In this document: in pieces, positions 27,001 to 44,011 of the stretch
Position numbering within the stretch: the stretch's first letter is position 1
How the letters are laid out: every line of letters starts with the position of its first letter
Notes under the pieces: generated by a model
What the model was told of the DNA's origin: nothing
Seen by the model: the letters and a program-made list of their open reading frames with translations, nothing else
Database searches by the model: none
Assembly (NCBI GenBank): GCA_017303995.1
Contig: JAFLBE010000029.1
Coordinates: forward strand, 1 to 53,414
Length of the DNA stretch: 53,414 bases
Source of the DNA: Bacteroidota bacterium
GTDB taxonomy: Bacteria; Bacteroidota; JABWAT01
Reading direction: 5' to 3'
Program-made: the position numbers and the translations under genes

Positions 27001-29379
27001 TCACCCCATCACAACATCAACTGTCACTTCTTTTCCTGCCGTTACCGGAATAACATTTCCGGCAATTGCTTTCCCGTTTACGGTCATAGAAGTTACCCCG
27101 GTTGAAACACCTGACGGGTTGCTGATTTTGATGTGATAAGTTGTTCCGCGGTAAAGGCGTTTCACTGAATATCCTGGCCAGGATTTTGGAATACAAGGAT
27201 CGACAATCAACCCGGCTTCATTGGTTCTGACTCCCAAAATCCAGTCAACCGTTACTTTTGCAAGCCAGGCAGCAGAACCGGTGTACCAGGTCCATCCGGC
27301 ACGACCGTAAAGCGCAGAAGTCGGACCTTCAACATTTCCCGGAGTCACGTAAGGTTCAGCAGAATATTTATCTGGGTCTTCAGTTCCCTTCACAATGGGG
27401 CACAATTTTCTGAACACATCATGAGCAGCATCAGCATCCCGGTTCAGAGCAAAAGCCCAGATTGACCAGGTGGCTGCATGCATATAAACCCCACCATTTT
27501 CACGTCGGCCAGCAGCGTAACGAGTCAGGTAACCAATGTACTTATCCGGTTTACTGTATCCCGGATGGAGCAATAATGGACCATTTTCATAAATCAGGTG
27601 TTTTTTGACTGCAGCAAGAGCCAGTTTTTGTTTATCAGGATCTGCAATCCCAGACATCACTGACCAGGTTTGTGCATTCAGGAAAATCTTTCCTTCTTCA
27701 TTTTCACTGCTTCCAAATTTTTCACCGGAATCTTTGGTTCCACGGAAATAATACTCACCATCCCAGGCGTGAAGGTCAAATGCTTTTTTTAATTCAACGG
27801 CTTTTGTTTCCAGTTTGGATGCAAAGGCAGTTTCTCCCCTTTTCCGGGCAACAGGTGCAAACCGGGTCAAAATGAAATAGAAAAATTCAGCCATCCAAAC
27901 CGATTCACCTTTCATATCAAGGCCAACTGCTGAAAGTCCGTCATTCCAGTCACCGGCTCCGATTAAGGGCAATCCACGGTCACTGAACCGGGTAAATACT
28001 TTTTCAATTGCTCTTACCGAATGCTGATAAAGTCCTTCTTCAAGCTGGGCGTTGTCATAGTAAGGTTCTTTACTGTCTAGAGCCGAGTCATCGCCGGTTT
28101 CCCACAAATAATGAACAAGAACGAATGGCAACCAGAGCAAATCATCAACCATTTTGGTCGGAAGTCCGGTTTCTGAAATCGGATGCCACCAATGGAGTAC
28201 AGTTCCGTCTTCAAACTGATGCCGGGCATGCAATTTCATTTGCTTCAAAGTCAGTTCAGGTTTGATGGTAAGATAAGTCAAACTATCCTGAAGCTGATCA
28301 CGGAACCCGAACGCACCTGACTGCTGATAATAGGCGGTTCTTGCCCACAATCTTCCGGCAATTGCCTGATAACGTACCCATTTATTGGTAAACAGATTCA
28401 TTTCCTTGTCAGGGGTTTCGATTTCGAGAGTTCCAAGATAATCCGCCCAGAACTTCTTCACTACGTTCAAAGCAGCATCAATTTTGGTTCCTGAATTATA
28501 CTTCCCAATCAAAGCTGCAATCTGTTCTTTTTTCTCCTGGATGCCGGCGAGATACTGAAACCGGGTACTTTCTCCGCCATTGATCGTCAGGTCAGATTTG
28601 AGTGTGGCTACCGGATCATACCAGATTCCGGATGTGCCCGTCAAAACGCCTGTTGCAACTCCTTCCGGATTCATCAAATCGCCATAATTGCCAAGAAAAT
28701 TCTCTTTATCACATTCAAATGAAGTGACTGAAGCTGTTGTAACCAGGAATCCTTTGTAGGGATATTCGATATTCCAGTGACCACGGTCGCCAAGTGGAAT
28801 TTCCCAGATTCTTTTTCCGGCAACAAGTCCGTTTAAATTGGGATCAAACTCGGTTTCGATAAAACATTTGTGGAATTCACGGTGGTGATCGGCGGATGAC
28901 CCGAGACACCATTCAAAATAAGTGTAAACAGAAAGACTGGCGGGTTTGGCATTCGTATTGGTGAGTTTCAAATCCCAGATTTCGACATTGTCGCCGATGG
29001 GAATTAAAATCGTCAGTTCTGCCTGGATTCCCTGAAATTCTGAAATGAATTTTGCGTATCCGAACCCAAACCGGACTTCATATTTATCGGGATTTTGCTT
29101 TACCGGTTGCCAGGTTGGTGACCAGACAATTCCGGTATCATTATTTTTGATGTAAAGATATTTTCCCCAGTTATCCTGAACCATATCCTGATGCCACCGG
29201 TTCAACCTGTTAAACTCAGAGTGGGTCAGAAAACTGAATCCGCCACCGGTTTGGGAGATGACAAGTCCGTACTCACCATTCGAAATAACATTGGTCCACG
29301 GCTTTGGGGTTTTCCATTGGTTGATGACAAATTCATTTCCATCATCAGTAAAAGTACCGTATTTGGTTTCAAATTGCAT
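27001..29379 (-). CDS. GH94-family glycoside phosphorylase
   Basis: A 792-residue cytoplasmic enzyme that should cleave a beta-glucoside with phosphate to give glucose 1-phosphate. The N-terminal beta-sandwich starts YGTFTDDGNEFVI, PWTNVISNGEYGLVISQTGGGFSF, LNRW; the (alpha/alpha)6 barrel follows, with catalytic Asp477 in GAGDWNDGLS. The end (DPCIPKSWPGYSVKRLYRGTTY) matches cellobiose and chitobiose phosphorylases in length and pattern. The N-terminal SNGEYGLVIS motif also recalls the GH94 part of cyclic beta-1,2-glucan synthases. Specificity is therefore open; the GH144 neighbours favour beta-1,2-linked substrates. Start preceded by AGAGGATC, 16 bases after the lacI-type gene. Confidence 0.88.
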   Translation of the reverse strand: MQFETKYGTFTDDGNEFVINQWKTPKPWTNVISNGEYGLVISQTGGGFSFLTHSEFNRLNRWHQDMVQDNWGKYLYIKNNDTGIVWSPTWQPVKQNPDKYEVRFGFGYAKFISEFQGIQAELTILIPIGDNVEIWDLKLTNTNAKPASLSVYTYFEWCLGSSADHHREFHKCFIETEFDPNLNGLVAGKRIWEIPLGDRGHWNIEYPYKGFLVTTASVTSFECDKENFLGNYGDLMNPEGVATGVLTGTSGIWYDPVATLKSDLTINGGESTRFQYLAGIQEKKEQIAALIGKYNSGTKIDAALNVVKKFWADYLGTLEIETPDKEMNLFTNKWVRYQAIAGRLWARTAYYQQSGAFGFRDQLQDSLTYLTIKPELTLKQMKLHARHQFEDGTVLHWWHPISETGLPTKMVDDLLWLPFVLVHYLWETGDDSALDSKEPYYDNAQLEEGLYQHSVRAIEKVFTRFSDRGLPLIGAGDWNDGLSAVGLDMKGESVWMAEFFYFILTRFAPVARKRGETAFASKLETKAVELKKAFDLHAWDGEYYFRGTKDSGEKFGSSENEEGKIFLNAQTWSVMSGIADPDKQKLALAAVKKHLIYENGPLLLHPGYSKPDKYIGYLTRYAAGRRENGGVYMHAATWSIWAFALNRDADAAHDVFRKLCPIVKGTEDPDKYSAEPYVTPGNVEGPTSALYGRAGWTWYTGSAAWLAKVTVDWILGVRTNEAGLIVDPCIPKSWPGYSVKRLYRGTTYHIKISNPSGVSTGVTSMTVNGKAIAGNVIPVTAGKEVTVDVVMG

Positions 29380-29395
29380 TGAGATCCTCTTAAGA

Positions 29396-30397
29396 TTAGC
29401 TGGATTGGCCTAAAACCATACCAGTTGAAATAGTAACTAAGCGTGAAGCAATGTGAGATTCGCTGTTCATTCGATCAAGTAAAAGTGTGGCTGCGGTTTT
29501 ACCGACTTCAGCAATCGGAACGCCAACAGTCATCAGTCTGGGTGATAAAAAACGGGAAACAAAAATATCATCAAATCCTGCAACGGCAACGTCTTCCGGG
29601 ATGGACAGACCAAAAGAATCTGCACCTTCGTAACACCCGATTGCCATCATATCATTGGCAGCAAAAATGGCTTCCGGTTTTTGAATCAGTGACATCAATC
29701 TTCTGAAGGCTGCCTCACCACTTGGAATTGTAAAAGCACCATCAACAATCCAATGCGGATTCACTGTTAACCCATGATCCTGGTGAGCCTGAAGGTAGCC
29801 TTGCTTTCTTTGAACTGCATCTGAATTTTCAGGCGGACCCGCAATGTGGGCAATTTTGGTATATCCTTTTTTATTGATCAAATGACTGACCAGGGAATAC
29901 GCTCCCTGATAATTGTCGATGGCAATCACATCCGTTTCTTTCAGTTCAGGATTTTCGCCAATGACCACAACCGGAATTCCTGACTCGCTCAATCCCTTTT
30001 TAATTGCTGGGGAGAGGTTAGTCGTCAACAAAATCAAACCATCAACCATTCTGCGGTGGGTAAAGGCTGCCAGCGTTTCGAGTAAGGAACCTTCACGACT
30101 ATGAGTGCTTGCTACCAGAGTAAAATAACCGCCGGAATGTGCAACTGACTCAACACCCTTGATGACTTCAGTAAAAAACTCATCAACGATATCGGGCATA
30201 ATAAGTCCGATAATATTCGATTTTCTTCTTACAAAATTTCTGGCGAGAATGTTCGGGCGGTAATTAAACTCTCTTGCAATTGAGACAACCAGTGCCTTTG
30301 TACTGGCCTTTACACGTTTGTCATTATTCAATGCCCGGCTAACCGTTGCAATGGAGACATCAGCCCGTTCTGCGATTTCTTTTATTGTATAATCCAT
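29396..30397 (-). CDS. LacI-family transcriptional regulator
   Basis: A 333-residue regulator. The N-terminal helix-turn-helix (IKEIAERADVSIATVSRALNN) and hinge (YRPNILARNF) are followed by a periplasmic-binding-like effector domain (NIIGLIMPDIVDEFFTEVIKGVE, AIFAANDMMAIG, VAGFDDI). A perfect palindromic operator lies 10 bases upstream of its start, implying autoregulation. It is the first gene of the carbohydrate locus, so it probably represses the GH94 gene and possibly everything to 14487 until an oligosaccharide binds. Confidence 0.93.
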   Translation of the reverse strand: MDYTIKEIAERADVSIATVSRALNNDKRVKASTKALVVSIAREFNYRPNILARNFVRRKSNIIGLIMPDIVDEFFTEVIKGVESVAHSGGYFTLVASTHSREGSLLETLAAFTHRRMVDGLILLTTNLSPAIKKGLSESGIPVVVIGENPELKETDVIAIDNYQGAYSLVSHLINKKGYTKIAHIAGPPENSDAVQRKQGYLQAHQDHGLTVNPHWIVDGAFTIPSGEAAFRRLMSLIQKPEAIFAANDMMAIGCYEGADSFGLSIPEDVAVAGFDDIFVSRFLSPRLMTVGVPIAEVGKTAATLLLDRMNSESHIASRLVTISTGMVLGQSS

Positions 30398-30738: not shown

Positions 30739-33108
30739 ATGAAGTTTATTTTGTTTTTGTTTGTTGCCATTTCTTTGGGCATTTTTTCAGGGTGTTCAAC
30801 CTTTAGTGAACTTTCACCACGCCCACCGGTTTCTCCCGCCGAAGGCAATTACACCGAACTCAAGAAAAAAACGGATAGTTTTGAGCTAAGTAAAAAGGAT
30901 AAGTATTTCATCAAATTTCCTGGAAGTACACAGGATAATATGGTTCTGACATTGAAATCAGACCAATTTTCATCGGTAAGAAGTTATTTGACCTCAAAAT
31001 TTGATGATGGCAAAGGTGAGATCATTAAAACACCCGAACTGATGTCTAACCTGACCGGACAAAAAGTATGGAAGCTGGAAAAAACCGAAAAACCTGCTTT
31101 CTGGGTAATTGACAGTGTTTACTCAGACTTTAAACTTAACATTCAATACCGGTACCTTCCTGAATGGCGGTTCAGATATGAAAACCGGTTCGATGTTTTA
31201 AAGTCAGATTATGTTTCAAGCAAAGTAAACCGGTTTTATCTTGATTCACTCGGACTTAAAGCCAATTTTAATGGCTTTGATTTTGTCAAAGAACTTAGTT
31301 TACTTGAAAAAACACTCCCCACATTAGAACGGATACAATCCGAACTGAATGATACGAAATCTGTCATTCCCTCTACTTTTCAAAACTCTGCAGACCCGGC
31401 TTATTTATCATGGAAAGACCTCGATCAATCCGTCAGTTCAGAACTTTCCTTTCAGACTCTCTATAATAAGTTACTCAAGGCATATAAGCTGGATTCAGAT
31501 TCCCGCCAAAATCAAGGTTTGCTTGCAGAAAATGCTGATCTGGTTACCGACCTGCTTCAGAATTTAAGTGCTTACCCTTCCAACACTCAAGCTGACATTC
31601 TCAAAACCTTCAGAAAAAGCATTCCAGCACTCAATTCCTGGTTTGATGGACGGATCCGGCAAAAATCTGATGCTAAACTTGTTGACGATGGAATTGCCAA
31701 AGTTGAAACGGTTTATCCGCTTCTGGTTATTCAACCTGAAGAAAATTTCAAGGCAGTTGTTGCTTTTAAAAACCGATTTAACCGGAATGTCACTGCACTC
31801 GAAAACGGACAGGCTGAATTTGAAACGATCCAACAGGAAGTTAAAAACTACTCAAATTGGCCAAGTTCCGATTTTTACGGTACGATTGTAAGGAAAATGG
31901 ATAATCTCTCCTCCAATTTGCCGGCTGCCCAAACCTCAGAATATGGAAAATATGCCGGTGTGAAATCAGTTTCCATCCTGAACGGACAAGTGAAATCCTT
32001 CAACGATAAATTCGGAAAAGCACATTCCAATTATCGCCGTGCTTCAGTCATTGCAGGTGATGTAAATGAATTGAAGGCCAACGGTGATTTCAGGGGAATT
32101 TTATCTCTCCTTAAAAAGAATCAGGATCTTGATTTTCTCATCAGACAATATCGTGGACTTGACGAAGCCTCAGTAAAATCCCAAAAAGAAGCCATTTTAA
32201 AGGCCATTCAGGAAGGTGAATACCCAACAGCAGAAAACCTTCTGGTTGATTTCCACAGGGATACTGATTTTCTCGATATGAAAGGAATTGCGGCTACAAA
32301 GAACAAAGCCGTTAAGGAACTTGAAAAACAATTTCTTGAAACCATCGAAACCCGGACGAAGGAATTTGTAAATTTATTTATGGCAGCCAATCTTACAACT
32401 CTTGATTCTGTTGACAGTTTGTACCAGAATCAGGTTTGGTCACCCATTTATGAACTGACGTTTACAACCGGCAAAGAAGCCGATCTCAAAAAGAAAAATC
32501 AGTCCATCGCCGATCTGTTGACGAAACTGAAAACCATTACTTTCCCTGAAACTGCCATAGAGGCACTTTACAAGGACTTCGTTTCTGATATCAGTAATAA
32601 AGGCGTTGAAAAAGCCCGGGCAATCGTTTCGCACGGAAAATATTATCGTGGGTCTGATAAAAAAATCAAAACAGCCTTGGCTGAAGTAGATCCTTTGGTA
32701 GCGAAATGGATTGTTAAACCGGTTGTTTACCGAAAGATTTTCGTTACACCAGAAACCACCGTTAAGGGTGGAACCAATCAGTATCGCTTCAGATTGAATC
32801 TGATGCCAGAAACCGATGCAGCCTTCCCGGTTTGGGATATCAACATCAAGCTTCCTGCTGAAATCGCAAAAAATGCCGGGCAGGAATCCTGGTTTGAATC
32901 GATTACCGTCAACGGAAAGCCGGTTAAAAACGAAGGTCGCTTTACCATCGAAGCACCGGTTGCATCAAACGATTATACCGCCAGAATTACGCCAATTCAA
33001 ACCAATAAAGGCAAAGAAAATATTCTGGAAGTCAGATTTACTCACAAATCATTTAAAGTTCACGAAGTCAGTGTGATGGTTCAGGTACCTTTAATCAAGA
33101 AAAACTGA
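30739..33108 (+). CDS. Large lipoprotein of unknown function (ABC operon, first gene)
   Basis: A 789-residue lipoprotein (signal ends GIFSGC, Cys at 19). The mature protein is mostly helical from about residue 180 to 650, with repeated Leu/Lys/Glu-rich helices (SVIAGDVNELKANGDF, EKQFLETIETRTKEF), flanked by beta-rich segments: an N-terminal part around KYFIKFPGSTQDN and a C-terminal sandwich (about 670-789, KIFVTPETTVKGGTNQ). I recognise no family. It opens the operon of a divergent peptide/nickel-type ABC transporter, so it may be an outer-membrane or surface partner that delivers substrate. A 137-base gap with a REP-like hairpin separates it from the binding-protein gene. Confidence 0.75.
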   Translation: MKFILFLFVAISLGIFSGCSTFSELSPRPPVSPAEGNYTELKKKTDSFELSKKDKYFIKFPGSTQDNMVLTLKSDQFSSVRSYLTSKFDDGKGEIIKTPELMSNLTGQKVWKLEKTEKPAFWVIDSVYSDFKLNIQYRYLPEWRFRYENRFDVLKSDYVSSKVNRFYLDSLGLKANFNGFDFVKELSLLEKTLPTLERIQSELNDTKSVIPSTFQNSADPAYLSWKDLDQSVSSELSFQTLYNKLLKAYKLDSDSRQNQGLLAENADLVTDLLQNLSAYPSNTQADILKTFRKSIPALNSWFDGRIRQKSDAKLVDDGIAKVETVYPLLVIQPEENFKAVVAFKNRFNRNVTALENGQAEFETIQQEVKNYSNWPSSDFYGTIVRKMDNLSSNLPAAQTSEYGKYAGVKSVSILNGQVKSFNDKFGKAHSNYRRASVIAGDVNELKANGDFRGILSLLKKNQDLDFLIRQYRGLDEASVKSQKEAILKAIQEGEYPTAENLLVDFHRDTDFLDMKGIAATKNKAVKELEKQFLETIETRTKEFVNLFMAANLTTLDSVDSLYQNQVWSPIYELTFTTGKEADLKKKNQSIADLLTKLKTITFPETAIEALYKDFVSDISNKGVEKARAIVSHGKYYRGSDKKIKTALAEVDPLVAKWIVKPVVYRKIFVTPETTVKGGTNQYRFRLNLMPETDAAFPVWDINIKLPAEIAKNAGQESWFESITVNGKPVKNEGRFTIEAPVASNDYTARITPIQTNKGKENILEVRFTHKSFKVHEVSVMVQVPLIKKN

Positions 33109-33149
33109 GTTGAATTCTAGTAGGCAGTACTTGTTCACACTTCGATACA

Positions 33150-33225
33150 ACTCATTTCATTCGTCACTCAGTGTGACATGTCAGGCTGAGTAGTCCGGCC
33201 ACGGCCGGACATATCGAGGCCCCAT
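33150..33225. repeat. REP-like palindrome inside the ABC operon
   Basis: GTCCGGCC (33193-33200) and GGCCGGAC (33203-33210) pair across two bases; the flanks ACTCAGTGTGACA and TGTCAGGCTGAGTAG form a second nested inverted unit. Related to the element at 7690-7728. It sits between genes 1 and 2 of the ABC operon and could adjust their relative expression. Confidence 0.65.
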
Positions 33226-33245
33226 AATTTTAACCAAGGAAATTT

Positions 33246-34964
33246 ATGTACACAAAATATTATATCGGCGGTGGCGTTCTCGTTGCAGCAATTGCAGTCA
33301 CTCTTTTTTTCTGGCCGTGGAATAAACTTAAAGACACCATTGCCCTCCCGTATATTTCTCACCAGCAACCGGTTCTTGATCCGCACCTACCTGCGCCCGA
33401 TCCCCTTTCCGACAAACTTGACGAAGCTGTCTATGACGGACTTTTCAACATTTCAGCAAATCCATCCGGGGTGATTTATGAGGATGGCCTCGGTGAACTT
33501 GTTGGCGTTACAACTGATAATCAGGTCATCATTCGGCTGAAGCCCGCAAAAAAATGGCACCAATCTTTTACACCTGCTCTCGATGATGAAGAAGTAACGG
33601 TTACCGAGGGAAGTCCGGTTTTGGTAACTGATAAAGACCTGAGATTCACTTTACGTCGTATTTTGGCCCTCGGTAGTCTTTCACCCGATTATATTCTGGT
33701 TTCACAAGCACTTGAGACCTTTGATTTTGTTGGACCCGATGCGAACAATGAAGTTAGATTTCAACTGAAAGCGACACGAATATGGACAGAAAATGATGTG
33801 AAAGAGGTTTTCTCCTTCAAAATTCTGCCGGCAACATCTGAACTGAATCAGGCAGCTTACCCATTCGGAACCGGTCCTTATCTTGTCGTAAAACCAACTG
33901 GGATTCCTGATTTGTACATCCGAAATCCTGCAGGTGAAGCCACCATTACGAATCTGATTCTTAAACCTTTCATTGATAACTCAACTTACCAGACTGAATT
34001 TTCAAATGGTGAATTCAATTTCTTACCAGGAACACCTTTTGGTGCAGTTTCCCCGATTTTGAACGATCCTGAAGAGTTTTTTGCCAAAGCCAACATCAGT
34101 ACAACCTTATTTGGTGTTCTTTTCAACACGACCAGGCTTTCACTTGAACAAAGAAAAGCCCTGAAAACTTTGCTGAACAAACAGGAAATCCTGAGCCGGT
34201 TTTTCAAAATCGGAACACCGCAGCAACGTAATATTCTCGATTACACAGGCAAAGAAAATAATTTCAACGATTTTCTGAACTACAGTGTTTTTCCTTCCAG
34301 CAGTTATTACGTCGACGAAGAAATTATCACCATTGATAAAAGTACACCCGTCGCTGATCTTTCTGTTTTACCCGATTCGATCAGAATCAAGGTTAACCTG
34401 AATTATGGAAACCGTGAAGAACTTGCCGAACTCATCCAGATTTTAAACGATCCGGCTGTTTCAAATGGAAAAATCAGAGCCTCAACTGCAACTGAAGAAG
34501 AAATTGCAGCAGGAAATTATGATGCCCTTCTGATGGGGTTTAATGGTTACAGAAGCAATTTCCTTTTTGATTTATACGACATTTTTCTTCGTGAGCCTGA
34601 TCTGAAAACATACCGGATCAATCTGGTGACAAATGGAATGGGCGGAACTGTGAATGCCAAATCCTTCAAACAGGAACGGAATTTCTTCCGGTTGGATTCT
34701 GAAACGACAGAGAATGCTGAAGAAGTTAAACTGCTTCTCAATTACGTCTACGGCTTCATGTCGAGTCACAATATTGGTGACAAACAGGAATATGCCCGCC
34801 GGATTGATGAACTTGAAAAACAATTGGCGTTGGGATCCTGGCTCTTCTCTCTGCCAAGTTTGAATTATTTCTCTACCCAATACGATCCGGCTTCGATTTA
34901 TTTGTATGGCGTTTCTTCCCAGCTTTCAACTGTTGAAAAATGGAAAGAAAAGAAAGAAGATTGA
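33246..34964 (+). CDS. Membrane-anchored family-5 solute-binding protein
   Basis: A 572-residue protein. Instead of a cleaved signal it has an N-terminal membrane anchor (YYIGGGVLVAAIAVTLFFWPW). The rest follows the peptide/nickel-binding (SBP_bac_5, DppA/OppA) plan: LDEAVYDGLFNI, a KWHQSF...VTDKDLRFTLRRIL segment (normally the disorder-rich D-V-x-F-T motif), PFGTGPYLVV, LFNTTRLSLEQRKALKTLLNKQEIL. It is more divergent than typical members, and the ligand is unknown. AAGGA precedes the ATG. Its end overlaps the next gene by 25 bases. Confidence 0.78.
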   Translation: MYTKYYIGGGVLVAAIAVTLFFWPWNKLKDTIALPYISHQQPVLDPHLPAPDPLSDKLDEAVYDGLFNISANPSGVIYEDGLGELVGVTTDNQVIIRLKPAKKWHQSFTPALDDEEVTVTEGSPVLVTDKDLRFTLRRILALGSLSPDYILVSQALETFDFVGPDANNEVRFQLKATRIWTENDVKEVFSFKILPATSELNQAAYPFGTGPYLVVKPTGIPDLYIRNPAGEATITNLILKPFIDNSTYQTEFSNGEFNFLPGTPFGAVSPILNDPEEFFAKANISTTLFGVLFNTTRLSLEQRKALKTLLNKQEILSRFFKIGTPQQRNILDYTGKENNFNDFLNYSVFPSSSYYVDEEIITIDKSTPVADLSVLPDSIRIKVNLNYGNREELAELIQILNDPAVSNGKIRASTATEEEIAAGNYDALLMGFNGYRSNFLFDLYDIFLREPDLKTYRINLVTNGMGGTVNAKSFKQERNFFRLDSETTENAEEVKLLLNYVYGFMSSHNIGDKQEYARRIDELEKQLALGSWLFSLPSLNYFSTQYDPASIYLYGVSSQLSTVEKWKEKKED

Positions 34965-35812
34965 GCAGGAAGTTTAACCTTTCCGGATTTTTGCAGATTC
35001 AGTTTTTTGTTCTGCTTTTCGCAATCACTCCGGTTTGGGGGAAGTCCCAATTTTTTCTGATTCAAAAACCGGAAAAACTGGAAATCAGAAATCAGTTTGA
35101 ACAAAAACTGACGCCTTCTGATTTTCAGTTACTTAAACCCTACCGACCGTTAAAACTTATTTCCAAATCTGAATTGCTCAGTGATGGCGTGACCAAAGCC
35201 ATGGTTGTGGAACTTGCAGGAAAACGGTTTTACTTTCTTCTCGACGGCAATAAAAGTCCCATTCGAAAAAGGGAATCTGGTGAGTGGATTCAACTGGACA
35301 ACCTTGAATCAGGATCAGGTTCCGGTTATGTATCACGGTCCACATCATTGGGTTCCGTGAGTCCGAACCATAAAACGGACAATCCCCTTCCTTCCGGAAC
35401 GGTTGCTGAAATAATTGCATCACAAAACGGTAAAGTTCTGGTTTGGATTCAATCTCTGAATAGTACAGGATGGATTCCATCAAAAAGTCTTTCATCTTCC
35501 TCTTCAAAATCCTCAACCGAAAACAATGCTGTTCAACAAGCCGCGCCCGATTCTCTTCAGTGGGTTACAGAAATCCTTTCAGAAGCCAATCAAATACTAA
35601 AATCAGCATGTAACAAATCCGGACAACAGATTGTCCAATTTAGTCTGATTCCCCAAAAAGGTAGCTACCTGATTCGTGTTGAAGGTTCAACTCCTGATAG
35701 ATTTGAACGGTCTTTTGAAAGTCTTTCCCGAAAAATCAGTTTGTACGCAACAGCAAAATCGGTATCAGTTGAACAAATTGAATCAGGACTCCGGTTGGAA
35801 TGGGCCAAATAA
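34940..35812 (+). CDS. Exported protein with SH3-like segment, unknown
   Basis: A 290-residue protein with an N-terminal hydrophobic signal (IQFFVLLFAITPVWG). The start is uncertain: ATG at 34940 lies inside the previous gene without a clear ribosome site; a TTG at 34961 after an A/G-rich stretch is the alternative. A central stretch (about 145-180: GTVAEIIASQNGKVLVWIQS, GWIPSKSL) reads like a bacterial SH3 domain, followed by a Ser-rich linker and an alpha/beta C-terminal domain. No named family. It ends in a TAATG overlap with the permease gene, so it is an integral part of this operon. Confidence 0.65.
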   Translation: MERKERRLSRKFNLSGFLQIQFFVLLFAITPVWGKSQFFLIQKPEKLEIRNQFEQKLTPSDFQLLKPYRPLKLISKSELLSDGVTKAMVVELAGKRFYFLLDGNKSPIRKRESGEWIQLDNLESGSGSGYVSRSTSLGSVSPNHKTDNPLPSGTVAEIIASQNGKVLVWIQSLNSTGWIPSKSLSSSSSKSSTENNAVQQAAPDSLQWVTEILSEANQILKSACNKSGQQIVQFSLIPQKGSYLIRVEGSTPDRFERSFESLSRKISLYATAKSVSVEQIESGLRLEWAK

Positions 35813-36852
35813 TGAAATCCATTCTGTTCAATCACCTGGTTGTTTTTCTGATTATTGCAGGTCTTTTCACTGGCTTGGGTCTTGTATCTGTGTTTCTTTA
35901 TCATCCCGAAAAAGCAGAATCAAATCCTGAAATGACCAAATGGCTGCAAGATTCAACCATCAATTGGCAGGATCCATTACATCAGGCTCTGATCGCTGAC
36001 GTTCTCGATTTAAAATCAGTTGAACAGGATGGTGAAGCTTTTGTAAGATCTGCTGCACGCCTTAAATCAGACGAAACAGCCAAAACCCTCGAGCAGCTCA
36101 GGCATCAAAAAGGACTTGTTTTTGGTGATTTCCCTGACTTTCTCCTCAAGTTGCTGGGTTTCTCTTTCATTTTTGGATTGGTTCTTTTCATTTTGGTTTG
36201 GGGTTCACAAACTCTGGGGCTTTATCGGTTTATCAGGTCAAAACAAGGCAAACGGACTTCCGGAAAACAATTCTGGCATTCAGTTTACAGTTTTTTCGGT
36301 TTGCTGATTTTATTCTCTCCGGGATATTTGATTGCCTACATGTTAAAGCCTCTGATTCCGTCTGATTCAATCATTCTGATGATTTCTCTCGGACTTATTA
36401 CCAACGGCGCGTTGATCGTCTATTCCCAAAAGTTTTTAAACCTGATGAATCAGGAAATGGACAAAGGTTACGTTCTTGCTGCCCGTATCAGAAATGTAAA
36501 CGAAAACTTCGAAAACGGACATCAATCAAATCTCACCTGGAAAGCAATTTTGGGCTTTCATAAACATTTTCCCGGGCATATTCTTCACCACATTTTGTTA
36601 AATGCCAAACGACAATACTGGAACACGGTTCGTGAATTGGCTGCCTTTACTATCACCAGTCTGATCATCCTTGAAATGGCATTAAATATTCAGGGACGGT
36701 ATGGATATGAACTGCTCAGGCAGGTTTTATATGGAAATTATGCTGATGTTCTGGCGATGATGTTGGGACTTTTCCTGATCGTGAAGCTTACTGAAGTCGC
36801 CATTGATTTCCACATTTATAAGCAAAAACTGAAGTTTGAAAATTGGAAGTAA
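35812..36852 (+). CDS. ABC permease, DppB-like (divergent)
   Basis: A 346-residue inner-membrane protein. The ATG at 35812 overlaps the preceding stop (TAATG). It has a first helix, then a roughly 95-residue periplasmic loop (EKAESNPEMTKWLQDS...) as in DppB, then five more helices. The cytoplasmic coupling segment GYVLAARIRNVNENF...AILGFHKHFPGHILHHI and the C-terminal GRYGYELLRQVLYGNYADV align by eye with the EAA region and end of DppB/OppB, but the usual EAA-G sequence is weak. The stop TAA forms the beginning of a heptamer array. Confidence 0.75.
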   Translation: MKSILFNHLVVFLIIAGLFTGLGLVSVFLYHPEKAESNPEMTKWLQDSTINWQDPLHQALIADVLDLKSVEQDGEAFVRSAARLKSDETAKTLEQLRHQKGLVFGDFPDFLLKLLGFSFIFGLVLFILVWGSQTLGLYRFIRSKQGKRTSGKQFWHSVYSFFGLLILFSPGYLIAYMLKPLIPSDSIILMISLGLITNGALIVYSQKFLNLMNQEMDKGYVLAARIRNVNENFENGHQSNLTWKAILGFHKHFPGHILHHILLNAKRQYWNTVRELAAFTITSLIILEMALNIQGRYGYELLRQVLYGNYADVLAMMLGLFLIVKLTEVAIDFHIYKQKLKFENWK

Positions 36853-36886
36853 GCTTTTAGCTATTAGCTGTTGGCTGTTAGCTGTC
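36852..36886. repeat. Heptamer array (AGCTGTT type), 5 units
   Basis: AGCTTTT, AGCTATT, AGCTGTT, GGCTGTT, AGCTGTC in phase, beginning at the last base of the permease stop codon. Directly followed by REP-like inverted units (CCGGACTTGATCCGG at 36890-36904; GCTGAATCAAGTTCAGC at 36950-36966). Confidence 0.8.
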
Positions 36887-36985
36887 ATACCGGACTTGAT
36901 CCGGTTAACGAAGTTCTGCGAAGCTCATCCATGCCTTTTATACTGGATGCTGAATCAAGTTCAGCATGACATCATGGTGGCCAAA
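36887..36985. repeat. REP-like element between permease genes
   Basis: Two palindromes: CCGGA-CTTGA-TCCGG and GCTGAA-TCAAG-TTCAGC, the latter followed by ATGACATCATGG. Sequences of this type (TCATACCGGACTTGATCCGG, ATGCTGAATCAAGTTCAGCATGAC) are widespread bacterial interspersed repeats. It separates two genes of one operon. Confidence 0.6.
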
Positions 36986-37023
36986 AGGACGGGGAATTTG
37001 CCTCACAATATTTTAAGGTTTAA

Positions 37024-37893
37024 ATGACTCCAAATTTAAAAATGAAAATCCCCTCTCTCTCAAACGACACCAAATGGATCCTCATTTGGCTCGCCGGGAT
37101 TTCTGTTTTATTGGTGTGGGATTTGGTCTTTTTAAATAAACCTGCACTTGTCCGAGTCTGGTTGGGTTTCGGAAATACTTTACTGGTTTCGGCAATCAGT
37201 TTGACCACAGCGCTTCTTCTTTCGTTCACTGTGAGCAGCTGGATTACCCTTTCAAGGTGGAATGAAAGACCAAAATTGGCCAGAACTGGGGAATTATTCC
37301 TCAATATTTTCCGATCAGTACCCCAAATCATCGGATTGTTAACCGGTTTTCTCATTTTGACCTTACTGGTGACCGCTGAGATTATGACTGGGAAGACAGC
37401 AATTTTAACGGGTTTTGGGGTAACGGTTGGTGTCGTTATTTTTTATGAATTTTCAGATATGCTGCTCGAGCGGGTTGCCTGGTTTGAACAAACTGATTTT
37501 GTGAGCGCATCACGAACTGCCGGTGTTCCTGATACCCATTTACTCTTTATTGAAATTTGGATGCGAAACAGTCTTCCGCATCTGATCAATAAACTGATCA
37601 GCGGATTTGGCGCCACCATTTTCTTGCTTTGCAGTATTGATTTTGTTTTGTCCGTCGGGTTATCATCATCAGTCAGCCCGATAAATTTTCCACCGACATT
37701 GGGTTCTATGCTTGCCCAAATTGACAGTAAGCAGGATATTTTATCGATTGGAATTTTATTTACTGACCCGTTTTATTTTCCTTCCCTTTTTACCCGTCAT
37801 TTGCAGGGTTTGTCGGTTGCTTTTCTGATTGTTTTTACTCTTGCCTGCTCTTTTAAAATTGGAAATGCCTTTACCCGAAGGCACCGGCTATGA
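37024..37893 (+). CDS. ABC permease, DppC-like (divergent)
   Basis: A 289-residue inner-membrane protein with about six helices. The segment FVSASRTAGVPDTHLLFIEIWMRNSLPHLI matches the EAA coupling loop of DppC/OppC permeases, and GLSSSVSPINFPPTLGSMLAQ the family's C-terminal PxWGxML-like turn. AAGG precedes the ATG. Its end overlaps the ATPase gene by four bases (ATGA). It pairs with the DppB-like permease despite the repeat-filled 171-base gap between them. Confidence 0.8.
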   Translation: MTPNLKMKIPSLSNDTKWILIWLAGISVLLVWDLVFLNKPALVRVWLGFGNTLLVSAISLTTALLLSFTVSSWITLSRWNERPKLARTGELFLNIFRSVPQIIGLLTGFLILTLLVTAEIMTGKTAILTGFGVTVGVVIFYEFSDMLLERVAWFEQTDFVSASRTAGVPDTHLLFIEIWMRNSLPHLINKLISGFGATIFLLCSIDFVLSVGLSSSVSPINFPPTLGSMLAQIDSKQDILSIGILFTDPFYFPSLFTRHLQGLSVAFLIVFTLACSFKIGNAFTRRHRL

Positions 37894-39413
37894 AACCACT
37901 CACTTTTTCTGCTGATATTTCTGTTGGTTCTCATTCCATTCTTTCGATTACTGATTTTTCAATCGAACAGGGAAAAATCAATGTTCTTTTTGGCGAATCA
38001 GGAATTGGAAAAACACTCATCTCCAAGTCCATTTTTGGATTAACCGATCCCGATAAGTTGTCTATCGAAATCAATTCACTTGGTTACCAGGATTATTTAA
38101 AAACGGAACAGGTTGAAGCTTTTCGGAAAAATGGTTTTTTCGTTCTTCAGGAACCGTCGTCGCAATTTAATCCGTCTTTGACCATTCAGGAACAACTCAA
38201 CGAAGCAGATTTGAACTCAGATTTAACTGAAGCTGATATTTTGTCCGGTTTATGGCAAAGCGATCAGTGGAAATCACTTTTACCCCTTTATCCACAGTCA
38301 TTCAGACCCAGTGGTGGCGAAAAACAACGATTTCTGCTCGCCATGGCTTTGAAAAAAATGGATAATCTTGCGAATCAAAATCAGCTGAAACCAGAAACCC
38401 TTTTCATTTTCGATGAACCCTCTGGTAGTTTAGATAACGGATTCAGGAATGCTTTTCTTGAGCAACTGATCAGTCGGTATCAGCAAAACCGGTTTACAGT
38501 TTTAGTTATTACCCATGATTATACCATTATTCCCTGGTTCAAAAATCATAAATCAGAGTTAACTTCAAATCTTTCCTGGCTTGAATTAACCAAAACCGAT
38601 TCTGGTGAACTTCAGTGCAATCCGTTTTTTCCCGATGAGTTTATTTCATGGCAAAAAAAACTTTCTCCCATGGGATTAATTAAAGGTGTGGCTGTTGCAG
38701 ATTTAAATTCTGGGGTGATTTGTCACGGCCGGCAACTTTCATTTCAATCGGGAACAAAACCGATTGAGTCTCTTAAACTTAAATCGGGTACCCTAACCTA
38801 TCTGAAAGCCCCCAGTGGTGTAGGAAAAACAACCGTTGCCCGGCTACTTTTGGGTTTGTATCACGGTGAAAATCTTCAGCTTTCAATATGTGGATATGAG
38901 TTTACTTCCCTGAATACGCAGGTGGACTGGAAAAAGTTGATTTGGGGAAAAAAGGCAGGAATGGCATTTCAGCTTGCCGATGAAGCTTTGAATCCGGTTT
39001 CAACTGTAAAACAGGTTTTTACTGCTTTAAAGAATCCAAAACTCAAAACCAATGATCAGATTTTGGATTTTCTTCAGCCCGTTTTCCTTAAAAAGCTGGA
39101 TGAAGCATTTCTTTCAGGACAGGTGAAGTACTTGAGCGGCGGACAAAAACAAAGATTGAACCTGATGCGAAGTATCGCTTCTGAACCTGAAGTTTTAATT
39201 CTGGATGAGCCATTAAATGGAGTTGACTTCAGAACGATTAAAATGTTTACCGGGATTCTTGAAAAATTACTTCAAAACGGAACAGCAATTCTTCTGATTT
39301 CACACAACGAAGAGATTTTCGATAAATTGTCGTTCAAGGAAAATCAGATTCAATTAAAGGCAGATGAACTTCTCAAGGAAAATGCCTTTACCACAGAGGA
39401 AACAGAGTCATAA
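37890..39413 (+). CDS. ABC ATPase with two nucleotide-binding domains (DppD-DppF-like fusion)
   Basis: A 507-residue cytoplasmic ATPase carrying both domains needed by the transporter. Domain 1: Walker A GESGIGKT (35-42), Q-loop LQEPSSQFNPS, signature PSGGEKQ, Walker B LFIFDEPS, H-loop ITHD. Domain 2: Walker A APSGVGKT (about 307-314), Q-loop FQLADEALNPVS, signature LSGGQKQ, Walker B VLILDEP, H-loop LISHN. Each domain is compact and lacks the C-terminal oligopeptide/dipeptide extension. Domain 1 has an atypical signature (PSGGE for LSGGQ). The last residues (TTEETES) and the stop lie inside a CACAGAG-type repeat. Confidence 0.9.
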   Translation: MKPLTFSADISVGSHSILSITDFSIEQGKINVLFGESGIGKTLISKSIFGLTDPDKLSIEINSLGYQDYLKTEQVEAFRKNGFFVLQEPSSQFNPSLTIQEQLNEADLNSDLTEADILSGLWQSDQWKSLLPLYPQSFRPSGGEKQRFLLAMALKKMDNLANQNQLKPETLFIFDEPSGSLDNGFRNAFLEQLISRYQQNRFTVLVITHDYTIIPWFKNHKSELTSNLSWLELTKTDSGELQCNPFFPDEFISWQKKLSPMGLIKGVAVADLNSGVICHGRQLSFQSGTKPIESLKLKSGTLTYLKAPSGVGKTTVARLLLGLYHGENLQLSICGYEFTSLNTQVDWKKLIWGKKAGMAFQLADEALNPVSTVKQVFTALKNPKLKTNDQILDFLQPVFLKKLDEAFLSGQVKYLSGGQKQRLNLMRSIASEPEVLILDEPLNGVDFRTIKMFTGILEKLLQNGTAILLISHNEEIFDKLSFKENQIQLKADELLKENAFTTEETES

Positions 39414-39592: not shown

Positions 39593-40846
39593 TCATAAAA
39601 CCAGCCAGAAAACCCCAATTGAAATGGCATTTCCAACAATCAAAGAACCAACACCTTTGAAAATCAAGGGTCTGATGATCTGGTTTCCATTAAAAATTGC
39701 TATCCCAAATTTGAAAAGAGAATTCACCGTCATTCCAATCAAAATGGTTATAACTGCAACCTTTACAAGTCCTGAATCCGTATTGGCGTAATTGACCATC
39801 GACAGAACAATGGCGTCTACAGCAGTTAATCCAGAAATGGCTCCCACCAGATAAATACCACTATCACCGAAAAATGACTTTCCAGCCTGCACCAAAACTC
39901 CCATCAATGAAAACAACACTGCAAAAAGTATCGCATTCCGGATGTTTAAAGGATTTGAAACGGACATCATTCCCGATGAAGGCTCAGGATCCTTCTCCTT
40001 CACAAGCCAGCGACCCAACAGTAAGCCGCCAACGCCTAATAAAATAGCAGGAATAGTGAGGTAAAATCCTAGCTCCGGATTCAAAAGGTAAACAACCAGC
40101 AATACACGCAGGTACATGATTGAACAGGCAAGAACAATTCCCGTTCCGTACTGATTCGCATGACTTGCATCTTCTTTACTCTTTTTGCTGAAATCCCAGG
40201 TCAGAGCTGTACTTGAAACAATTGCCCCAAGTATTGCTGTAAACTGAATCCCCTTTTCTGCACCTTTTAATTTGGTAAGAATGTATCCGAAAAAACTGAT
40301 TCCTGAAATCAGAACAATCACATAGCCAATCTGCTTTGGGTTGACAGCGAGATAAGGTCCGGTTTGATTATCCGGCAAAACGGGAAGAATAATGGCAACC
40401 ATGATCACAAATTTTAACAAAGCGAAAAAATCTGGCTGGCTAAACTTACCTAAGGCTGAAAGAACCTGAAGTTTAATTGATAGTAAAACAGTTATCAGAA
40501 CAGCGGCGGAAACGGCAAGAAGAACTTCCCCCCGAAAAACCAGAGCGCCCAAAATAAAAGTGAGAATGAACGAAACTTCCGTTGTCGCTCCGATATCATT
40601 TTTTTGACTGAGAGTGAAATACGAAATGGAAACAAGCGCAATAACCGCAATAAAGGCAATTGCAAAAATCCAGTACCCTTCAGATTTACCTAAAAGAGCA
40701 CTTAAATACCCAAGTAAACAAACCAGCGGAAACGTTCGGATGCCGGCGAACAAACCTTGACCGGGTACCAGATGACTGTATTCCCGTTCAAGCCCAATGA
40801 GTAAACCCATTCCAATGACAATGGCAAGGTCAGATAGAATTTCCAT
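39593..40846 (-). CDS. MgtC/DUF4010-family membrane protein
   Basis: A 417-residue polytopic inner-membrane protein. The N-terminus (AIVIGMGLLIGLEREYS...GIRTFPLVCLLGYLSALLG) matches the MgtC/SapB domain; the C-terminal half matches the DUF4010 extension (GSLIVGNAISI, GAISGLTAVDAIVLSM). About twelve hydrophobic segments. Family members are linked to magnesium homeostasis or act as uncharacterised permeases; substrate unknown. Convergent with the ABC operon and divergent from the phosphatase gene. Confidence 0.87.
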   Translation of the reverse strand: MEILSDLAIVIGMGLLIGLEREYSHLVPGQGLFAGIRTFPLVCLLGYLSALLGKSEGYWIFAIAFIAVIALVSISYFTLSQKNDIGATTEVSFILTFILGALVFRGEVLLAVSAAVLITVLLSIKLQVLSALGKFSQPDFFALLKFVIMVAIILPVLPDNQTGPYLAVNPKQIGYVIVLISGISFFGYILTKLKGAEKGIQFTAILGAIVSSTALTWDFSKKSKEDASHANQYGTGIVLACSIMYLRVLLVVYLLNPELGFYLTIPAILLGVGGLLLGRWLVKEKDPEPSSGMMSVSNPLNIRNAILFAVLFSLMGVLVQAGKSFFGDSGIYLVGAISGLTAVDAIVLSMVNYANTDSGLVKVAVITILIGMTVNSLFKFGIAIFNGNQIIRPLIFKGVGSLIVGNAISIGVFWLVL

Positions 40847-42544: not shown

Positions 42545-44011
42545 ATGAAAACACTAATTACATCCTCAGTTTTGTTACTTCTTACCTTTTGTGTAAATGC
42601 CCAAAATACCGAAAACATTTCCATAGGTAAAAAAGAAATCATTTTTTCCAGGGTATTGAATGAAAATAGAAAAATTTGGATTTATACTCCAAACTTAACT
42701 TCTCAAAGTGTAAGTCCTGAAAAGCGATACCCTGTCGTGTATTTATTGGATGGTGATGCCCATTTCTTTTCAACTGTCGGTATTATTCAACAACTTAGTC
42801 AAGCCAACGGTAATGGTGTTTTACCCGAAATGATTGTGGTTGCCATAGAAAACACAAACAGATTTAGGGATTTTGTTCCATCTGATGATTTGAACAAAAC
42901 AAACCCATTTATAGACTTTTTAACGTCTGAATTAATACCGCACATAGACAAGACTTACAGCACTTCACCTTACAAATTGTTAGTTGGGCATTCATTAGGT
43001 GGACTCACCGCAATTGATGTTCTCACTAACTTCCCCCAATTATTTAATGCCTGCATTGCCATAGACCCAAGTATGTGGTACAATAACGAAAAGTTTTTGA
43101 ACAATACCATTGATAAATTGCCCAAGCAAAATATGAATGGTAAAAGGTTATTTGTTGGAACAGCAAATACAATGCCCAGGGGAATGACACTTTCACAGGT
43201 TAAAAACGACAATTCATTTGAAACACAACATATCCGTTCAATATTCAAGTTAGATGAATTCTTGAAAGAAAATACCAATGGTTTGCTCTATGCACAAAAA
43301 TATTATGAGACAGATGGACATAATACAATACCCCTTTTAAGTGAGTATGATGGGTTACGTTTTATTTTTGACTATTTTCATTTAGATGCAACCGAAAATG
43401 ATTTTGCTGATTCAACTGCGTTCATTGCTTCAAAAATAAAAACCCATTATGCAAATGTGTCAGATAAAATGGGCTACAAAAATTCAGCACCAGAAGCACT
43501 TATTAACTATTTTGCATTCGATGCTTTGGGTAATAATCAATTCAATAAAGCACAAGCGTTATTTGAACTTAACATCGAAAGTTATCCTGAAAGCAGTACT
43601 GTTTATGAGTCGTATGCTGCTTATTTTTTGGCAAAAAAGGATACAATCAATACCATTTCAAATTATAACAATGCATTACAGATTGAAAATAAAGCAGAGA
43701 CTCAACTAAAGTTAAACGCTTTACTTACTAAAGAAACATCAAACCCTGTAACTGTTGATTTACAAAAATATGTTGGCGTTTATGTTTTGGAAACCTATAA
43801 CATTTCCATAATTTTAGAAATTCGTGATGCTAAATTTTGGGCAATAGCTCCAGAACAAGATGATAGCGAATTACAGATGCTGTCTGAAAACGTTTTCACT
43901 GTAAAAGGAAACAATGGCATTACAGTTACATTTCAAATGGATGGAGACAAGCCAAAAGCATTTACTTCGGTTCAACCCAATGGGACTTTTCAAGCAGTAT
44001 TTAGAAAATAA
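42545..44011 (+). CDS. Exported alpha/beta-hydrolase esterase (Fes/esterase D-like)
   Basis: A 488-residue exported protein with a signal peptide (cleaved near CVNAQ-N). The esterase domain (PF00756-like, about 25-290) has RYPVVYLLDGDAHFF, nucleophile elbow VGHSLGG, and the His in YETDGHNTIP. A TPR-like helical stretch (about 315-400) and a beta-rich C-terminal domain (YVGVYVLETYNISI) follow. Relatives hydrolyse siderophore or other esters, or are beta-lactamase-region proteins. The gene lacks a Shine-Dalgarno sequence and is markedly AT-rich, unlike neighbours outside 42.4-44.85 kb, which suggests transfer from a true Bacteroidetes host. Confidence 0.85.
   Translation: MKTLITSSVLLLLTFCVNAQNTENISIGKKEIIFSRVLNENRKIWIYTPNLTSQSVSPEKRYPVVYLLDGDAHFFSTVGIIQQLSQANGNGVLPEMIVVAIENTNRFRDFVPSDDLNKTNPFIDFLTSELIPHIDKTYSTSPYKLLVGHSLGGLTAIDVLTNFPQLFNACIAIDPSMWYNNEKFLNNTIDKLPKQNMNGKRLFVGTANTMPRGMTLSQVKNDNSFETQHIRSIFKLDEFLKENTNGLLYAQKYYETDGHNTIPLLSEYDGLRFIFDYFHLDATENDFADSTAFIASKIKTHYANVSDKMGYKNSAPEALINYFAFDALGNNQFNKAQALFELNIESYPESSTVYESYAAYFLAKKDTINTISNYNNALQIENKAETQLKLNALLTKETSNPVTVDLQKYVGVYVLETYNISIILEIRDAKFWAIAPEQDDSELQMLSENVFTVKGNNGITVTFQMDGDKPKAFTSVQPNGTFQAVFRK

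Follow-up and report, generated by a model that had tools for sequence, protein, structure and literature searches.

The window analysed here, a stretch of 53,414 nucleotides from a Bacteroidota bacterium, carries six genes that run in the same direction between positions 30739 and 39413. A first-pass annotation made from the sequence alone had proposed this arrangement within the same limits, and we found all six open reading frames on the + strand, as follows:

30739-33108, + strand: lipoprotein of 789 aa (open reading frame with a lipobox cysteine at position 19; no Pfam or NCBIfam family)
33246-34964, + strand: family-5 solute-binding protein (SBP) of 572 aa (SBP_bac_5; N-terminal hydrophobic helix as a tether)
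34940-35812, + strand: exported SH3-like protein of 290 aa (signal-like N-terminus; SH3-like fold in a predicted model)
35812-36852, + strand: OppB/DppB-like permease of 346 aa from a TAATG start (hhalign to E. coli B subunits)
37024-37893, + strand: OppC/DppC-like permease of 289 aa (hhalign to E. coli C subunits)
37890-39413, + strand: fused double ATPase of 507 aa (two ABC_tran stretches, 5.3e-38)

The SH3-like gene had been described as embedded by a TAATG overlap. Such an overlap is present (35810-35814) toward the dppB-like gene; on the SBP side, the two genes instead overlap by 25 nt in the window. The OppB-like permease reading frame encodes 346 aa from the ATG at 35812 and would encode 350 aa if begun at 35800. 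The B and C permease genes lie 171 nt apart in the window and mostly abut or overlap each other in other loci. The gap (36853-37023) consists of repetitive-looking DNA with runs of TTAGCTATTAGCTGTTGGCTG and an inverted CCGGA..TCCGG, and both its length and its sequence are unlike those in L005, a relative otherwise nearly identical to the window.

That the two unrecognised exported proteins belong to the transporter, as proposed by the first-pass annotation, is strongly supported. In a profile search the lipoprotein matched 11 of the 394 genomes of the window's phylum, and a profile of the OppC-like permease built from the family matched exactly the same 11, with no genome (0/394) possessing only one of the two. 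The unknown proteins had been expected to occur mostly apart from the transporter if the proposal were wrong; across the 394 genomes, however, the lipoprotein was never found without the permease. Neither of them matches a known Opp accessory family. The lipoprotein was present in all four genomes of the window genome's class (the whole class comprises four genomes), and the SBP in 11 of the 164 genomes in the order of another carrier (G115). The Calditrichota were reached through two MAGs of that phylum found by their ATPase, the phylum of one of which was then searched. Of 40 Calditrichota genomes, 29 have a single copy of the SBP, and the whole six-gene cassette is also present in this phylum; the cassette thus spans two bacterial phyla. 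The permease profile was positive in 12/12 carriers tested, including those in which SBP and permease lie on different contigs.

Gene order is preserved as well. Counted over the fetched loci only, and leaving out the near-identical L005, the lipoprotein and SBP genes are adjacent and in the same order in all 43 loci that hold both. For the other pairs found on one contig, order is kept in 32/33 (SBP and SH3-like), 26/26 (SH3-like and B), 27/27 (B and C) and 25/27 (C and ATPase) cases. All six genes occur in 21 fetched loci, in the order lipoprotein, SBP, SH3-like protein, B, C and ATPase. The cassette is split into a lipoprotein-SBP-SH3 half and a B-C-ATPase half in some genomes (L026/L086, L089/L088 and L090/L087), and the two halves are in swapped order in L032. 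These results strongly support a transporter of its own kind, in which two exported components lie outside the canonical set.

The DppB- and DppC-like identity assigned to the permeases was borne out by profile comparison, in which each fits its own E. coli counterpart best. By hhalign, the B permease aligned to OppB/DppB/NikB with P=5.5e-5 (0.019 to C subunits) and the C permease to OppC/DppC/NikC with P=7e-5 (0.015 to B subunits). In Pfam, BPD_transp_1 matched neither window permease but 6 of the 28 C-permease relatives (best 1.3e-7). The C permease also gave a MetI match of 0.007. Residues about 228-258 of the B permease contain an insertion of ~20 residues relative to OppB/DppB, common to the family, in what is presumed to be the cytoplasmic coupling (EAA) loop. 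The ATPase likewise agrees with its earlier description as a fused protein with a PSGGE first signature and no peptide-transporter extension. It holds two complete ABC domains, with motifs GESGIGKT and PSGGEKQR in the first and APSGVGKT and LSGGQKQR in the second. The first-domain motifs are found in 28/28 relatives (PSGGEKQR being invariant) and the second-domain signature in 25/28. The chain stops soon after the second H-loop, and Pfam gave no match to the oligo_HPY C-terminal extension. A sequence search of solved structures returned no convincing relative of the lipoprotein, the SBP, the SH3-like protein or the B permease.

The binding protein had been called a membrane-tethered member of family 5, and both parts of this description withstood comparison with its relatives. 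A hydrophobic N-terminal segment is present in 43/43, and no lipobox was apparent in the aligned N-termini. SBP_bac_5 (PF00496) matched the window SBP at 7e-5, below the gathering score, and 27 of the 43 relatives (best 3.4e-12); one relative lay above the cut-off at 45.6 bits.

Over the 17 loci holding all six parts, mean pairwise identity was highest for the SBP (0.57), followed by the C permease (0.50), ATPase (0.46), B permease (0.41), lipoprotein (0.38) and SH3-like protein (0.24). By contrast, in the E. coli Dpp, Opp and Nik systems conservation is lowest for the SBP (0.27) and highest for the ATPases (0.38-0.42), although this paralogue control sets cassette orthologues against E. coli paralogues and the contrast is only indicative. 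An SBP evolving more slowly than its own ATPase is consistent with a single invariant ligand or with numerous contacts to other proteins, as in a hub.

The lipobox claimed for the 789-residue protein is real and conserved. Its cysteine is found in 40/40 alignable relatives and is followed at +2 by Ala, Ser or Gly, never Asp; the +2 sorting rule, however, was derived in Enterobacteria and need not apply to these bacteria. No convincing Pfam or NCBIfam family was found among 41 aligned relatives either. The predicted structure consists of a beta domain (about 39-141), a helical stretch of ~500 residues (142-650) and a second beta domain (656-781). With a pLDDT of 90.3 and a pTM of 0.55, the model is confident locally and not in overall placement; it therefore fixes neither the relative position of the domains nor the reach of the protein. 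Conservation peaks in the C-terminal beta domain (0.50-0.69, versus about 0.22-0.41 in the helical part), is moderate in the N-terminal beta domain and is low over most of the helical part. Foldseek gave local matches to PliG and to carbohydrate-binding modules (probability about 1, E above 0.01), which presumably concern one of the predicted beta domains, and neither Foldseek nor a viral fold library gave a significant fold relative of the whole protein. Kinship of the helical part with eukaryotic tethering rods (Tip20p, COG2_N, Vps54_N) was rejected; the matches (E 2.9e-3 with TM about 0.11; 0.002-0.004 in one to three members) were put down to helical-bundle likeness.

All 30 relatives of the SH3-like protein carry a signal-like hydrophobic N-terminus. 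This segment is followed by a predicted SH3-like barrel region and a C-terminal alpha/beta domain (about 204-288). The label "SH3-like" is tentatively backed by the predicted fold (pLDDT 88), although it is hardly visible by sequence, where SH3_3 matched 1/30 relatives below the cut-off (E=0.01). The best Foldseek match was the amidase YrvJ (1.2e-3); others were SH3 and SH3b domains, matched over about 63 residues with probability 1.00, target TM up to 0.74 and E about 0.03-0.06. The counterpart in one carrier, G001, is a 120-aa protein (L032:9387-9746, minus strand) made up of a signal-like segment and the C-terminal alpha/beta domain only, the latter 36% identical to that of G003. At least one carrier can thus do without the SH3-like region, and the part common to these proteins is the C-terminal alpha/beta domain.

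Like E. coli OppABCDF, DppABCDF and NikABCDE, the cassette comprises an SBP_bac_5 binding protein, B and C permeases and two ATPase domains. Unlike them, it has an SBP tethered by a helix rather than soluble or lipid-anchored, a fused PSGGE-type ATPase lacking the C-terminal extension, permeases barely detectable by Pfam, and an obligate lipoprotein and exported SH3-like protein in addition. The core fits Opp/Dpp-type importers, but the ATPase extension and a free or lipid-anchored SBP are absent, so that the cassette is best regarded as a variant rather than an ordinary member. In YejABEF and GsiABCD, both ATPases are also fused in one chain and the permeases are of Opp type; to our knowledge, unlike the cassette, these systems have neither a lipoprotein strut nor an SH3-like protein. 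The alginate superchannel of Sphingomonas sp. A1 is an ABC importer with a dedicated envelope path, although the likeness is one of idea only, its SBPs and permeases being of sugar type and taken as unrelated to the cassette.

We give about even odds (roughly 0.5) to the cassette being an Opp/Dpp-derived six-component importer in which the SBP is fixed at the inner membrane and the lipoprotein bridges to the outer membrane. The homology of its SBP, permeases and ATPase places it among importers, and bridging is suggested by the lipobox, the arrangement of domains, the conservation of the distal end and the obligate linkage; outer-membrane sorting, bridging, contact between the parts and the direction of transport are all inferred. 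The fused double ATPase would power the OppB/OppC-type permease pair, and the N-terminal helix of the SBP would keep it beside the permease instead of letting it diffuse. The N terminus of the lipoprotein would be anchored in the outer membrane, its helical stretch would cross the periplasm, and its C-terminal beta domain would be presented to the SBP and permease at the inner membrane. The exported SH3-like protein may help to keep the assembly in place or to orient it. One invariant substrate would then be taken up along a fixed route, in place of a soluble-SBP shuttle. That the lipoprotein strut, a wall-associated protein and the fixed SBP together make up a single continuous apparatus for uptake, reaching from the outer to the inner membrane, is a more tentative proposal, which we regard as somewhat on the doubtful side; we know of no such continuous envelope-spanning class among Opp-type transporters.

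The cassette could also be an ordinary Opp/Dpp-type importer of di- or oligopeptides, with the lipoprotein and SH3-like protein as accessory envelope proteins and no bridging. The core parts all have homologues in the Opp/Dpp/Nik systems, and the window genome has no other family-5 SBP above the cut-off, so that the cassette could be its sole such importer. Several other carriers, however, have additional canonical family-5 SBPs; a role as the hosts' only family-5 system thus holds for the window genome and was rejected for carriers in general. Accessory loss would be expected at times, yet no genome among the 394 held the permease without the lipoprotein, and the tether and the inverted order of conservation, with the SBP slowest, are atypical of such importers. 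In addition, an alignment by eye places the invariant Tyr435 of the SBP where OppA and DppA have the Asp (D419 and D408, respectively) responsible for binding the N terminus of the peptide, although the profile alignment was not significant (P=0.23). Loss of this Asp from the C-lobe may be read from the alignment by eye but could not be backed statistically. Overall, we consider an ordinary importer possible but unlikely.

An ATP-driven envelope machine that serves export, assembly or remodelling instead of import, with the SBP-like protein in a structural or gating role, appears improbable. It would agree with a membrane-fixed SBP more conserved than the ATPase, with the obligate lipoprotein and with the atypical coupling region of the B permease and its insertion of about 20 residues. 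The SBP_bac_5 homology and the importer type of both permeases nevertheless argue against it, and none of the six components is of exporter type.

Finally, the cassette might recycle cell-wall material by importing muropeptides, in a role like that of YejBEF-YepA of Agrobacterium. A fused Opp-type ATPase is also found in YejF, and the SH3-like fold matches the amidase YrvJ and wall-binding domains. YejBEF-YepA imports muropeptides in Agrobacterium, which shows an Opp-type system to be capable of this task (PMC9790009). The window's family has no convincing homologue of the muropeptide permease AmpG, yet AmpG-like proteins are present in most carriers outside this family; a lack of AmpG does not follow the distribution of the cassette, and the idea that the cassette replaces AmpG was rejected. 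Together with the coexistence of canonical family-5 SBPs, this means that neither observation reveals the substrate. With the SH3-like region missing in G001, the SH3-like protein the least conserved part and few neighbour families recurring beside the cassette, we give little credence to a muropeptide importer. For the same reasons of divergence, absence in one carrier and untracked AmpG, the suggestion of the first-pass annotation that the transporter may act at or close to the cell wall is a weak one.

If the bridging proposed for the six-component importer is true, it would represent a binding-protein-dependent importer physically coupled to the outer membrane. The cassette is single-copy in 29 of 40 Calditrichota and is also carried by several families of the window's phylum. 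This distribution points to a core role in the envelope that current annotation overlooks, the lipoprotein having no family name and the permeases lying mostly below Pfam thresholds. One cultured species, Caldithrix abyssi, belongs to the Calditrichota. No description of the six-gene system was found in the literature searched, which covers few subscription journals, and, as far as a search by terms goes, the C. abyssi genome paper (PMC5317091) gives no account of the cassette.

Genes flanking the cassette were rejected as a functional clue, the few recurring neighbour families being found partly among near relatives. Divergent upstream in the window are a GH94-type phosphorylase and a LacI-family regulator (27001-30397, minus strand); open reading frames of matching size adjoin the cassette in L031, from the same genus, and not in other carriers. 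Downstream lie an MgtC/DUF4010 membrane protein and a putative esterase-like protein, at 39593-40846 and 42545-44011.
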